Positions 55,032-58,285 of a DNA stretch of 64,000 nucleotides are shown piece after piece. This stretch comes from Sagittula sp. P11 (lineage in GTDB: Bacteria; Pseudomonadota; Alphaproteobacteria; Rhodobacterales; Rhodobacteraceae). The notes beneath the pieces were generated by a model, which did not search any database, was not told the DNA's origin, and was given only the letters and a program-made list of their open reading frames with translations. The translations under genes were made by a program, and so were the position numbers. Each line of letters opens with the position of its first letter. Positions within the stretch are counted from its first letter, which is position 1. The stretch covers positions 2,514,001 to 2,578,000 of the forward strand of contig NZ_CP021913.1 in NCBI RefSeq assembly GCF_002814095.1, read 5' to 3'.

Positions 55032-56258
55032 ATGACTGACAAGAACCCGGATAAAGGGTATGTCGCCCTGCTCGGCTGGAGCCTGAACGCCATTGACGCG
55101 GTCGACCGCTTCGACCGCCGGTATGTGGTCGTCGCTCCGCCCTGGGCCGAGGACTACTGCAAGCAGAACGACATTCCCTTTGTCCCGTGGGACTTCGACC
55201 GTCTGAACGAACGCTCGCACGAGCTGGCGCACCGGCTTGACGACATGGGCGTCGACGTGGCCATCCCGATCTTCGAGGAGACGGTGGAATGGGCCGGTGC
55301 GATCAATGCCGTGCTGATGAAGAACCCGCGGCTTCTGGGGCAGGCCATGCTGTTCCGCGACAAGTCGCTGATGAAGCGCCGCGCGCAGCTGGGCGGTATC
55401 CGGGTGGGCGTCTTTGAAGAGGCGCACGACCGCGGCGACGTGATCCGGTTCCTCAAGCGGGTCAACCAGACGCTGCTGAAGCTGGACGGCGACCCGAACG
55501 ATCCGATCCACTTCAAGGCCTTCGACAAGTCCGGCACCGCCGGTCACCGGGTGATCCGCACCCCCGAGGACGTCGACAACATCCCCGACGAGGAATTTCC
55601 GGCGCTGCTGGAAAGCCACCTTGACGGTTGGGAATTCGCCGTCGAGGCGTGGATCAAGAACGGCAAGGTGCAGTTCCTGAACATCTCGGAATACGTCACG
55701 CTGGGCTACTCGGTCTTCGTGCCCGCCACGCCGGAGCTCGAGGCGCACCGCGAACGGATAACCGAGGAAATCGAGAAGCTGATCGAGGTCTTCGACATCG
55801 ACTTCGGCTTCATCCACCCGGAGTATTTCCTTACCAGCGACAACAAGCTGTACTTCGGTGAGGTCGCCTATCGCCCGCCGGGCTTCAACGCGCTGGAGCT
55901 GATCGAACGGGCCTACGGCTTCAACGGCTACCAGGGGCTGGTGGTGGCCTTCGATCCGAAAACCACGCAGGAAGAGCTCGACGCCTTCTTCCCGAAGGAG
56001 ATTGTCGATGCCAAGGGCCACGCCGGGTGTTTCGGTGTCTATCCGCGCCGCCGCGTGGTCAGCCGTCTGGAGATCCCCGAAGATACGGCGAACCACCCGT
56101 ATTTCGAATTTCACGAACTGGCCGACCCGCGCGAGCAGAAGGTGGCCAAACGGTCCGCGTTCGGCACGCACTGGGGGCTGGCCTATTTCTTCGGTGACAA
56201 CCCGCACGAGTTGCGAGACCTTCTGAAGAAGCAGGAAGAGCTGGATTATTACGTTTGA
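55032..56258 (+). CDS. ATP-grasp enzyme of unknown substrate
   Basis: 408 residues from ATG 55032 (AAAGGA box). An N-terminal Rossmann-like domain (about 1-90, VALLGWSLNAIDAVDRF), then an ATP-grasp domain: LLKLDGD and LLESHLDGWEFAVEAWIKNG (lid and nucleotide-binding), and metal-binding LYFGEVAYRPPGFNALEL where Glu and Arg/Asn positions are present. Such enzymes join a carboxylate to an amine or thiol through an acyl phosphate. Substrate unknown. Coupled to the following gene, whose ATG overlaps its stop (ATGATGA), so both work together. Confidence 0.8.
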   Translation: MTDKNPDKGYVALLGWSLNAIDAVDRFDRRYVVVAPPWAEDYCKQNDIPFVPWDFDRLNERSHELAHRLDDMGVDVAIPIFEETVEWAGAINAVLMKNPRLLGQAMLFRDKSLMKRRAQLGGIRVGVFEEAHDRGDVIRFLKRVNQTLLKLDGDPNDPIHFKAFDKSGTAGHRVIRTPEDVDNIPDEEFPALLESHLDGWEFAVEAWIKNGKVQFLNISEYVTLGYSVFVPATPELEAHRERITEEIEKLIEVFDIDFGFIHPEYFLTSDNKLYFGEVAYRPPGFNALELIERAYGFNGYQGLVVAFDPKTTQEELDAFFPKEIVDAKGHAGCFGVYPRRRVVSRLEIPEDTANHPYFEFHELADPREQKVAKRSAFGTHWGLAYFFGDNPHELRDLLKKQEELDYYV

Positions 56259-58285
56259 TGAACCTCAGAAACGCGTCCTCCGCGGACGGGCAGACCGGGG
56301 ACGACAGCGCCGCGCTGGCGCGCTTGTCCGGTACGCTCGATCTTGCGATTGAACGGCTGGAGCGGGCCCGGCCCTTTGCCAAGGCCCGCTATCAGCGCCC
56401 CGTGCTCGACGTTCTTGGCCGCATCATCGCCCAGCCCGGCGGGCTGGGGGTGGTGCGCGAACGGGCGGCACGCATGGACGCAGCCGGGCTTTTCGTCGGG
56501 TCCGACTGGGACCGGCCCGAGGCGCTCCTGCCGCAACTGGTCGGAGGGACGCTGGTGTCCGAAGACCCCGCGTTCCAGGCGTTGGAGGCGGCCAGCCTGT
56601 CGCGGTTCCTGGCCGTGGCCAAGGGCGACGCCCGGCATGGCAACCTGCATCAGGACGGCGCGCGGCACTTCCTGACACAGGTGCTTGCGCTGAACCTGAA
56701 GGACCTGTTCGGGGTGCCGGACGAAGCGGCCCGGGGGCTCGGTGCGCGGCACGAGGTGAAATGCCGGGTGCTGCGGCACATCGCGGACCATATCGGGCTG
56801 AACGACGTTCTCAGCGTGCTCGTGTCCGAGATCTGGCGCCTGCTGGAGCAGCGCTCGGTGCAGGTGGGTGTGGTCAAGGACATGATCGCCCAGATCGCTG
56901 TCGCCCTGAACGAGAACGGCACCGAACCCGGCAGCACCCGCCTCGGCGCGGAGCGTCTGGTCAGTGCCCTTTTCGGCCCGACGACGGCGTCGCGCGACGA
57001 TCCGGGCCTTGCCGTCTACCTCGACCGCATATCGGTCGCCGACGACGCCGGCCTCTCGCGTGAGGCCATGGGGTTTGCCCGCGCGATGCACGATACGGGG
57101 CTGGTCTCCGACTACCATGCGGCCTTCCTGACATGGGCGCTGGACTTCGATCAGCGACCCCTGATCCCCGAGGCGCTTGGCCTCGGGTCCACCGGCCTCG
57201 ACTGCTGGCGCCATTATCGCGGCGTGATCGAGAAACTGGTGCGCAGCGCCGTGACGCCGGCCACGCCGCAGGCCGCCTACGGGCTCGCCATGCTGCTGGA
57301 ACGCGGCACCCTGCATCACGCGCCGATGGTTCCGGCGCTGGAACGGCAACTGTCGCTCCGCCTGCGCGGCGCGGCGCGGGACCGTCTCGCGCTCGGGTTC
57401 GGGCCTGCCGTCTCGCCGGAGACGCAATTGCTGGCCGGTGTGCTTCAGGTGCTCGGGCAGCCGCTGGGCGTCGGGCAGGGCGCCAATCCGACCTGTCAGT
57501 CCGCCCGGGCCATCGCACTCTGGGCGTTGAACGACCCGGATTACCTGCTGCACCTCGTGACGCAGGTGGCCGAGTTCGACACCCTCCAGATGCAGTTCGA
57601 GGGCACGCCGATCAACTCCGCCGACCTTCCGGCAGGGCTTGCGGGTATGGGACCGATCGACGCCGACCCGGTGTCGGTCCTTCTGGTCGGGCATCTCGAC
57701 CGGATCTACGCCGAGATGGGCCGGCTGTGCGCGGGACGCCCCGGCGATCCGCACAAGTGGATCAATCCGCAGTTCCACGGCTGGTGGGTGTCACGCGATT
57801 GCGCCGTCGCGGTGGATGTCACCACCGGGAAGCTGGCGGCCTACGACGACTTCCTGCGCCGTTTCTTTGCGACATATCATCCCGACCACAACGGCGGCCG
57901 ACCGCTTGGTCACCCGCAACCGGCCGGTATCGCTGTGACGGATGCGCAGCAGCGGTTCGTGGGCTGGCATGCCATCGCCATCCTGCGGGTGGCAGAGGAT
58001 CAGGCCGGGCGGATGCGGATCTACTTCTACAACCCGAACAACGACAGCGGTCAGGACTGGGGCAACGGCGTCGTGGTGTCGACCTCGGGGCATGGCGAAC
58101 GCTACGGCGAAGGATCGCTGGAGTTCGACCCGTTCCTGTCCCGTGTCTACCTCTTTCACGACGAGCCGCTGCGCAGCGCGCATGGTCAGGACATTCCCGC
58201 CGATGTCATCGCGAGGGTGCGCGAGCAGGCCATCGCCAGCTGGGCCGCCGACAGGCAACCGGAGGACGAGAGCGTAGGCGCCTGA
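56255..58285 (+). CDS. Uncharacterised 676-residue protein with papain-like Cys-His-Asn motif
   Basis: 676 residues, no signal peptide. The N-terminal ~400 residues look alpha-helical, with no named domain. The C-terminal third holds a triad in the order of papain-like peptidases and deamidases: C414 in NPTCQSARAIALWAL, H572 in GWHAIAILRV, and N593 in YFYNPNNDSGQDWG, followed by a GEGSLEFDPFLSRVYLFH segment. This fits a cysteine hydrolase, transglutaminase-like or amide-forming enzyme, but the family is not known to me. It starts within the ATP-grasp stop codon (ATG 56255 or 56258). The pair could make and trim an amide-linked product. Confidence 0.6.
   Translation: MMNLRNASSADGQTGDDSAALARLSGTLDLAIERLERARPFAKARYQRPVLDVLGRIIAQPGGLGVVRERAARMDAAGLFVGSDWDRPEALLPQLVGGTLVSEDPAFQALEAASLSRFLAVAKGDARHGNLHQDGARHFLTQVLALNLKDLFGVPDEAARGLGARHEVKCRVLRHIADHIGLNDVLSVLVSEIWRLLEQRSVQVGVVKDMIAQIAVALNENGTEPGSTRLGAERLVSALFGPTTASRDDPGLAVYLDRISVADDAGLSREAMGFARAMHDTGLVSDYHAAFLTWALDFDQRPLIPEALGLGSTGLDCWRHYRGVIEKLVRSAVTPATPQAAYGLAMLLERGTLHHAPMVPALERQLSLRLRGAARDRLALGFGPAVSPETQLLAGVLQVLGQPLGVGQGANPTCQSARAIALWALNDPDYLLHLVTQVAEFDTLQMQFEGTPINSADLPAGLAGMGPIDADPVSVLLVGHLDRIYAEMGRLCAGRPGDPHKWINPQFHGWWVSRDCAVAVDVTTGKLAAYDDFLRRFFATYHPDHNGGRPLGHPQPAGIAVTDAQQRFVGWHAIAILRVAEDQAGRMRIYFYNPNNDSGQDWGNGVVVSTSGHGERYGEGSLEFDPFLSRVYLFHDEPLRSAHGQDIPADVIARVREQAIASWAADRQPEDESVGA

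Follow-up and report, generated by a model that had tools for sequence, protein, structure and literature searches.

Amide-forming ligases of uncharacterised metabolite- or peptide-modification systems were reportedly predicted by Iyer et al. in 2009, and the concept of an ATP-grasp enzyme working together with a peptidase is already known. The closest described cases are RimK/RimB and the rlo operon of Pseudomonas, both being ATP-grasp/peptidase pairs; the Rlo proteases are described as needed under hypo-osmotic stress (PMC12239564). On the metabolite side, two sources list N-alpha-carbamoyl-glutamine 1-amide and N-acetylglutaminylglutamine amide as uncharged amino-acid osmolytes of halophiles (PMC1224877, PMC7824335), and a 2005 review calls the enzymes of such capped glutamine-derived solutes unexplored at that time (PMC1224877). 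Here, we analyzed a stretch of 64,000 nucleotides from Sagittula sp. P11 (Rhodobacteraceae; contig NZ_CP021913.1, positions 2,514,001 to 2,578,000 of the forward strand), in the following referred to as the window, which encodes an ATP-grasp ligase directly followed by a cysteine protein that is without a name in the searched libraries. These two genes recur together across several phyla and almost only in bacteria synthesizing ectoine. The pair was not named in the open-licence literature searched, mostly at listing or abstract level. Its features are:

55032 to 56258, forward strand: ATP-grasp ligase gene, 408 amino acids (aa), start ATG at 55032 and stop TGA at 56256-56258
56258 to 58285, forward strand: cysteine protein gene, 675 aa from the ATG at 56258 or 676 aa from a TTG at 56255
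56256 to 56260, forward strand: stop/start overlap TGATG, as read in the sequence

Evaluation of the open reading frames (ORFs) of the window showed both genes to be real, adjacent, and co-oriented. The letters of the junction are TTTGATGA, or GTTTGATGAACC over a longer stretch, with one base being common to the stop TGA (56256-56258) and the start ATG (56258-56260); the alternative start TTG at 56255 leads to a four-base overlap with the ATP-grasp stop. The overlap ATGATGA claimed in the initial annotation is absent from this junction, whose one-base (or, with TTG, four-base) overlap suggests translational coupling of the two genes. Residues of the cysteine protein are numbered from the TTG at 56255 throughout; use of the ATG start lowers every number by one.

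The occurrence of the pair was evaluated in draws of 198 genomes of the family and 398 genomes of the phylum of the window, which itself is included in both. The same nine of the 198 family genomes carry both genes and none carries only one. Because of this joint recurrence, the ATP-grasp enzyme and the cysteine protein are a true unit, far beyond chance, and the conserved pairing in other genomes, on which the initial annotation had made its proposal depend, is borne out. On phylum level, the cysteine protein was detected in 11 of 398 genomes, window included; genome G200 was not counted as pair-positive there, its match (35% identity over 139 residues, E 1.2e-4) representing a different protein. 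A draw of Actinomycetota contained the cysteine protein in two of 198 genomes, one of them being the chosen centre. Pattern scanning of GTDB genomes revealed at least 585 encoding stretches (a count of stretches and not of genomes), the best 80 of which were retained. Among the matches listed, carriers belong to the Alphaproteobacteria (Rhodobacterales and others), to the Gammaproteobacteria (Halomonas, Marinobacter, Salinivibrio, and Thiomicrorhabdus), to sulfate reducers (Desulfobulbaceae and Desulfobacteraceae), and to the Actinomycetota (Streptomyces, Pseudonocardia, Amycolatopsis, Saccharopolyspora, and Hoyosella). DNA of the ATP-grasp gene is present in 99 of 104 cysteine-protein loci. 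Regarding the other five, L021 is an unrelated match, and L022, L023, L050, and L101 have an ATP-grasp gene elsewhere in the same genomes. Congruently, the ATP-grasp was found in all 12 tested genomes carrying the cysteine protein, that of the window included. The distribution is patchy, with transfer between classes being probable. As cargo of phages or plasmids the pair was rejected: no relative of the cysteine protein appeared in phage records, neither protein in viral contigs, and the single plasmid record is the 1.8 Mb replicon of Halomonas sp. PA16-9.

The apparently halophilic nature of the carriers prompted a search of both draws for ectoine synthase (PF06339). It is encoded in nine of nine pair-positive family genomes versus 64 of 198 overall (hypergeometric 2.6e-5; 7.9e-5 without the window) and in 11 of 11 pair-positive phylum genomes versus 60 of 398 overall (4.0e-10; 2.6e-9 without the window), the latter turning into 11 of 12 if G200, showing no EctC match, is counted as carrier. 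A further 60 carrier genome handles, consisting of G659 and 59 loci of the best 80 of at least 585 stretches, yielded ectoine synthase in 57 cases (22 of 23 plus 35 of 37), and the three negative carriers (G596, G821, and G834) are all metagenome-assembled genomes. At least one genome was counted twice in this test (G815 and G062). The pair is thereby found almost only in ectoine-making, salt-tolerant bacteria, the strongest clue to its role and one that the initial annotation had overlooked. This association is one-way, as 55 of the 64 ectoine-positive family genomes are without the pair. In the window, the corresponding gene is:

2648 to 3046, forward strand: ectoine synthase gene EctC, PF06339 match with E 7.5e-56 at G000:C1:2516648-2517028

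It is located ~52 kb from the pair, thus being genetically separate and a statistical partner only. The region 769-4468 represents an ectoine operon, its EctC being confirmed by PF06339, and the ORFs at 769-1296, 1353-2639, and 3050-4468 resemble ectA, ectB, and an aspartokinase gene. Among the loci examined, only three contain ectC: in L032 it is ~0.7 kb away from the ligase, in L086 and L077 ~1.9 kb and ~10 kb, respectively, from the pair. Ectoine genes as physical neighbours were rejected on these grounds and co-localisation was therefore dropped as a main argument.

The ligase itself scored 22.1 bits with PF13535 (ATP-grasp_4) in the Pfam scan, below the gathering cut-off of 27. An NCBIfam scan with E up to 1 touched the models PRK07206 and PurK alone, both far under their cut-offs, in a library that presumably also holds an N-acetylglutaminylglutamine synthetase model. 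With 10.8 bits for PurK versus an equivalog cut-off of 375, the ligase does not match a known enzyme of primary metabolism, an outcome named at the outset as fatal to the proposal. The predicted structure (mean predicted local distance difference test, pLDDT, 75.7; predicted template modelling score, pTM, 0.75) matched 4wd3_A in Foldseek (E 1.4e-19) and reached VIA-align Z values up to 27.1. The top VIA-align rank was occupied by the L-amino-acid ligase BL00235 (3vot; Z 27.1, root-mean-square deviation (rmsd) 4.8, 362 residues), followed by RizA (4wd3, Z 26.6) and 4dim (Z 25.6); BacD/YwfE (3vmm, 3wnz) took ranks 4-6 with Z 23.5-23.7 (3vmm 23.7), tied with PurK (22.9). A sequence-profile search of the PDB returned 4dim (E 1.3e-4), 3vot (1.4e-3), and 4wd3 (4.6e-3). 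Judged by its modeled fold, the enzyme is nearest to L-amino-acid (dipeptide) ligases, the sequence match being weak. All 97 distinct sequences share E264, E277, R281, K115, and K150, presumably the acidic and basic catalytic positions of ATP-grasp, and their alignment has 153 invariant columns. Identity to the window ranges from 71 to 94% in the 31 other rows of set A2, covering alphaproteobacteria, gammaproteobacteria, sulfate reducers, and actinomycetes. Sets A2 (32 rows) and A3 (35 rows) were chosen by hand for diversity among the loci then at hand, A3 excluding L008, L014, and L020 (stop codons in the match range or reported) as well as L058 and L097 (poorly called frames).

At the thresholds applied, the cysteine protein remained without a match in Pfam (E up to 1), NCBIfam, PADLOC, PHROGs, and PDB sequences. 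Its predicted model (mean pLDDT 84.7, pTM 0.78) consists of an all-helical part of ~375 residues and a subsequent mixed C-terminal domain, with the following features:

57380 to 58162, forward strand: catalytic domain, residues 376-636, resembling the calpain protease core (VIA-align to 6bjd_D)
57476 to 57478, forward strand: codon of Gln408, presumed oxyanion-hole residue six before the Cys, invariant in 106 of 106 sequences
57494 to 57496, forward strand: codon of Cys414, presumed nucleophile, invariant in 106 of 106
57968 to 57970, forward strand: codon of His572, presumed general base, invariant in 106 of 106
58031 to 58033, forward strand: codon of Asn593, presumed third triad member, invariant in 106 of 106

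Superposition of residues 376-636 with the calpain 6bjd_D gave Z 8.4 and rmsd 4.1 over 202 residues (14% identity), and calpains occupy the VIA-align ranks 1-15, suggesting a calpain-like fold of the C-terminal domain by a borderline match. Gln408, Cys414, His572, and Asn593 occur in that order in all 106 distinct sequences, the diverged paralogues and the window included; matches that were short or contained a stop were skipped and their number not tallied. We assign the oxyanion-hole role of Gln408 by presumed analogy to calpain and papain. The charged residues D84, R117, E157, R160, and R195 of the helical half are invariant in this set as well. By eye, the bacterial C2 domains L125, L126, and L128 share the same Gln-6-Cys spacing and the His-Ala...Asn-Pro pattern. 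Fold, residue order, spacing, and invariance of these four positions suggest a thiol enzyme; given the invariance and the C2-like spacing and pattern, the protein therefore probably works like one of clan CA. The helical N-terminal half and the Cys414-His572-Asn593 arrangement described in the initial annotation are both recovered, the former in the model and the latter at exactly these numbers. Its fold assignment is supported as to a domain of papain/calpain-like appearance with invariant Cys-His-Asn, and the calpain core fits the model better than a transglutaminase-like enzyme does, albeit at borderline level.

Conserved neighbours were sought by gene clustering in 81 loci, using a simple home-made gene caller and with some flanks ending at contig edges. 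No third conserved gene was found. The most frequent neighbour family resembles an ABC-type ATPase by eye and is scattered over varying positions in 25 of the 81 loci, later families resemble Halomonas synteny, and the scanned neighbours vary between genera. Short ORFs (20-70 codons) lying up to 2 kb from the pair formed clusters spanning no more than 11 of 81 loci; the rows displayed belong to Halomonadaceae, and these ORFs are likely shadow frames. A carrier or precursor peptide was rejected after both clusterings had remained negative in these loci, though distant or fast-evolving precursors could escape; that none is seen nearby had already been noted for the window. Lack of a third conserved gene or short ORF is as expected for a self-contained pathway. 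RNA regulation was likewise discarded, with Rfam at gathering score giving no match in the window, L086, L061, and L066. Comparing upstream regions between the window and nine relatives revealed no clear conserved block, and no sigma-70-like site was found, 0.4 being expected by chance.

The two genes are loosely coupled in number and arrangement. In G267, G368, G332, G587, G588, and G589, we counted 5, 4, 3, 3, 2, and 2 full cysteine proteins and 2, 2, 3, 1, 1, and 2 ATP-grasps, respectively; the remaining five carrier genomes of this comparison have one of each. Gene order is variable, including ligase first, thiol enzyme first, divergent, and apart, and L050 and L101 hold extra cysteine-protein copies without an adjoining ligase. 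In the ATP-grasp tree, one Onishia (Halomonadaceae) copy and four Rhodobacterales rows form a second subtype (support 100/100). In these four rows (L032, L033, L034, and L056), the cysteine proteins are 68-73% identical to those of L026, L028, and L029, which are closely related to the one in the window, and 60% identical to Rhodovulum row L038, whereas their ATP-grasps are 84-86% identical to the second Onishia copy and 67-72% to the Rhodobacterales type (all values from stop-to-stop frames and thus slightly low). From this mismatch of affinities it follows that the ligase was probably exchanged while the alphaproteobacterial-type cysteine protein stayed. Exchange, unequal copies, and unlinked genes fit better to enzymes joined by a metabolite than to a fixed complex.

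Two further observations concern the copies. A third cysteine-protein subclass, having CQSVIG or CQSAIG versus CQSARA, is present in L111-L116, L118, and L121 (G267, G368, G332, G587, and G589); these are presumably the same eight sequences in which Arg replaces Trp before the His, and six of the eight show no ATP-grasp within the fetched stretch. In Halomonas daqiaonensis, the cysteine protein at L101 8500-9960 is without neighbouring ATP-grasp and retains L063-like upstream sequence, and an ATP-grasp of the same genome adjoins another cysteine-protein copy.

The pairing, the invariant residues, the ligase fold, and the association with ectoine synthesis are shown by these data. On this basis, we tentatively read the pair as a two-enzyme cytosolic module that produces or turns over a small peptide-like compound by which ectoine-making bacteria adapt to salt, and infer its chemistry, substrates, product, direction of the second step, and physiological role as follows. 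In the first step, suggested by the fold, the ATP-grasp enzyme would activate an amino acid or small acid at its carboxylate, forming an acyl phosphate that would then be joined to an amine to give a dipeptide-like or amide product. In the second step, suggested by the fold together with the invariant Cys-His-Asn, the partner would form an acyl-enzyme on Cys414 with this product or with an amide donor, e.g., glutamine, and transfer the acyl moiety onto an amine or water. The product would thereby be capped, extended, or recycled, and would most likely serve salt adaptation beside ectoine. The self-contained pair, its loose stoichiometry, and its near-restriction to ectoine makers would be accounted for by a small amide or peptide of the cytosol that is synthesized or recycled in response to changing salinity. 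A more specific version is doubtful: a halophile-specific two-gene pathway, spread across phyla, for a novel or genetically orphan peptide-like compatible solute (e.g., N-carbamoylglutamine amide), consisting of a dipeptide-type ATP-grasp ligase and a new bacterial calpain-fold acyl-transferase with its own helical substrate domain.

Several points weigh against this proposal. Conservation of the ATP-grasp is unusually high (70-97% identity) and may indicate a macromolecular target, and no conserved transporter or regulator was found near the pair in the 81 loci. For the calpain core, the Z value of 8.4 comes close to what the tool specifies as noise, and unrelated helical structures follow from Z 7.2 on. 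Foldseek on the whole model returned nothing significant, the best hit (E 0.17) being an unrelated flippase and papain-like chains appearing at ranks 6, 7, 15, and 18. The calpain similarity went undetected by sequence in HMMER versus Pfam, the PDB profile search, and hhalign; the latter gave a probability of 0.1% against three bacterial C2 domains (from very few sequences), and PF00648 had no match anywhere in the genome of the window. Calpain homology by sequence was accordingly set aside, and fold and motif remain. Regarding the ectoine link, the p-values are plain hypergeometric ones ignoring phylogeny, and the link may merely mark halophily.

The main rival explanation, though unlikely, is a write/erase system acting on a protein. 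Here, amino acids would be attached to the protein by the ATP-grasp and taken off or shortened again by the calpain-like enzymes, comparable to RimK/RimB acting on the ribosomal protein RpsF. Pairs of such logic exist with RimK/RimB and the rlo operon (PMC12239564). The lower number of ATP-grasps than of diverged thiol partners in some genomes fits one writer with many erasers, and the helical N-terminal half may bind proteins. However, the PDB structures closest to the ATP-grasp are small-molecule ligases, and a conserved substrate gene was not found near the pair in the 81 loci. It appears improbable that the pair belongs to ectoine metabolism itself by conjugating, opening, or salvaging ectoine, hydroxyectoine, or ring-opened amino acids: the near-total co-occurrence with ectoine synthase and the ectC genes near the pair in L032, L086, and L077 speak for such a role, but these are the only loci examined with ectC nearby, and the many ectC-positive family genomes without the pair (55 of 64) argue against it.

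Peptide natural product clusters often contain ATP-grasp ligases and cysteine peptidases, which counts for a non-ribosomal or ribosomal module with the thiol enzyme maturing or cleaving a peptide. In L066, genes of the Amidoligase_2 and Peptidase_C26 families directly follow the pair, a context favouring this option on which we do not rely. Such a module is quite improbable, since the 81 loci revealed neither a conserved precursor or carrier gene nor one for transport or tailoring, and scanned neighbours differ between genera. An anti-phage or other conflict system would be compatible with the patchy occurrence and the probable transfer across classes. This is very improbable considering zero PADLOC families for the three proteins scanned (E up to 1; neighbours were not scanned against PADLOC), no relative in phage records (cysteine protein only) or viral contigs, no conserved third gene, and the tight link to ectoine makers; a known anti-phage defence system was rejected by the missing PADLOC match of the pair. 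Behaving as a unit in several phyla and being nearly confined to ectoine producers, the pair may belong to a further amide solute or protein modification of halophiles. If true, the cysteine protein would be a bacterial calpain-fold enzyme serving metabolism and not proteolysis.

Several genes surrounding the pair were recorded in addition. In the window, positions 58413-58943 (forward strand) encode a 176-aa Cys-rich protein (CAKCAALCC...) having no family match and not conserved beside the pair elsewhere in the 81 loci, and 59032-62783 (reverse strand) a class-III aminotransferase, a D-amino-acid-dehydrogenase-like FAD enzyme, a RidA-like protein, and a TetR regulator; a DAO-family gene also adjoins the pair in L066, probably by chance. 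Upstream, 50442-54246 contains probable copper-resistance genes, by eye multicopper-oxidase-like (50812-52167) and outer-membrane-efflux-like (52164-53558), followed by a CopL-like ORF (53833-54246) with 25.4 bits, under the cut-off of 40. L105 carries GCS2-like and AstE/AspA-like genes, the latter just below cut-off, which were not relied on. Histone-deacetylase/acetylpolyamine-amidohydrolase-like genes (PF00850) lie a few genes from the pair or from a lone ATP-grasp in several lineages (L059 12085-13179, L055 5411-6541, L117 13211-14308, and, by eye, L020), and one histone-deacetylase-like cluster spans eight of the 81 loci, possibly by chance.

Over its whole length, the ATP-grasp is closest in fold to BL00235 and RizA, both of which also match it weakly by sequence profile; together with BacD/YwfE, these L-amino-acid ligases share just 14-16% identity with it. 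To our knowledge, no L-amino-acid ligase of the BL00235/RizA/BacD kind is paired with a calpain-like partner. The calpain core (peptidase family C2, clan CA) is, at borderline level, the nearest fold to residues 376-636 of the cysteine protein, which differs from calpains by NPN replacing NPW after the His and by a helical domain of ~375 residues and unfamiliar kind fused N-terminally. Regarding possible products, we presume the known genes for N-acetylglutaminylglutamine amide to be unrelated to the pair. This amide and N-alpha-carbamoyl-glutamine 1-amide, for which Ectothiorhodospira marismortui/mobilis is the known producer, are of the small amide/peptide solute type the pair could make, with nothing linking it to either. 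In contrast to the present cysteine protein, the peptidases of RimK/RimB and rlo are retropepsin-like aspartic enzymes, and rlo additionally has a membrane-bound inactive transglutaminase, a part without conserved counterpart found here. They likewise represent an ATP-grasp working with a peptidase, and the Rlo proteases are linked to osmotic stress tolerance (PMC12239564).

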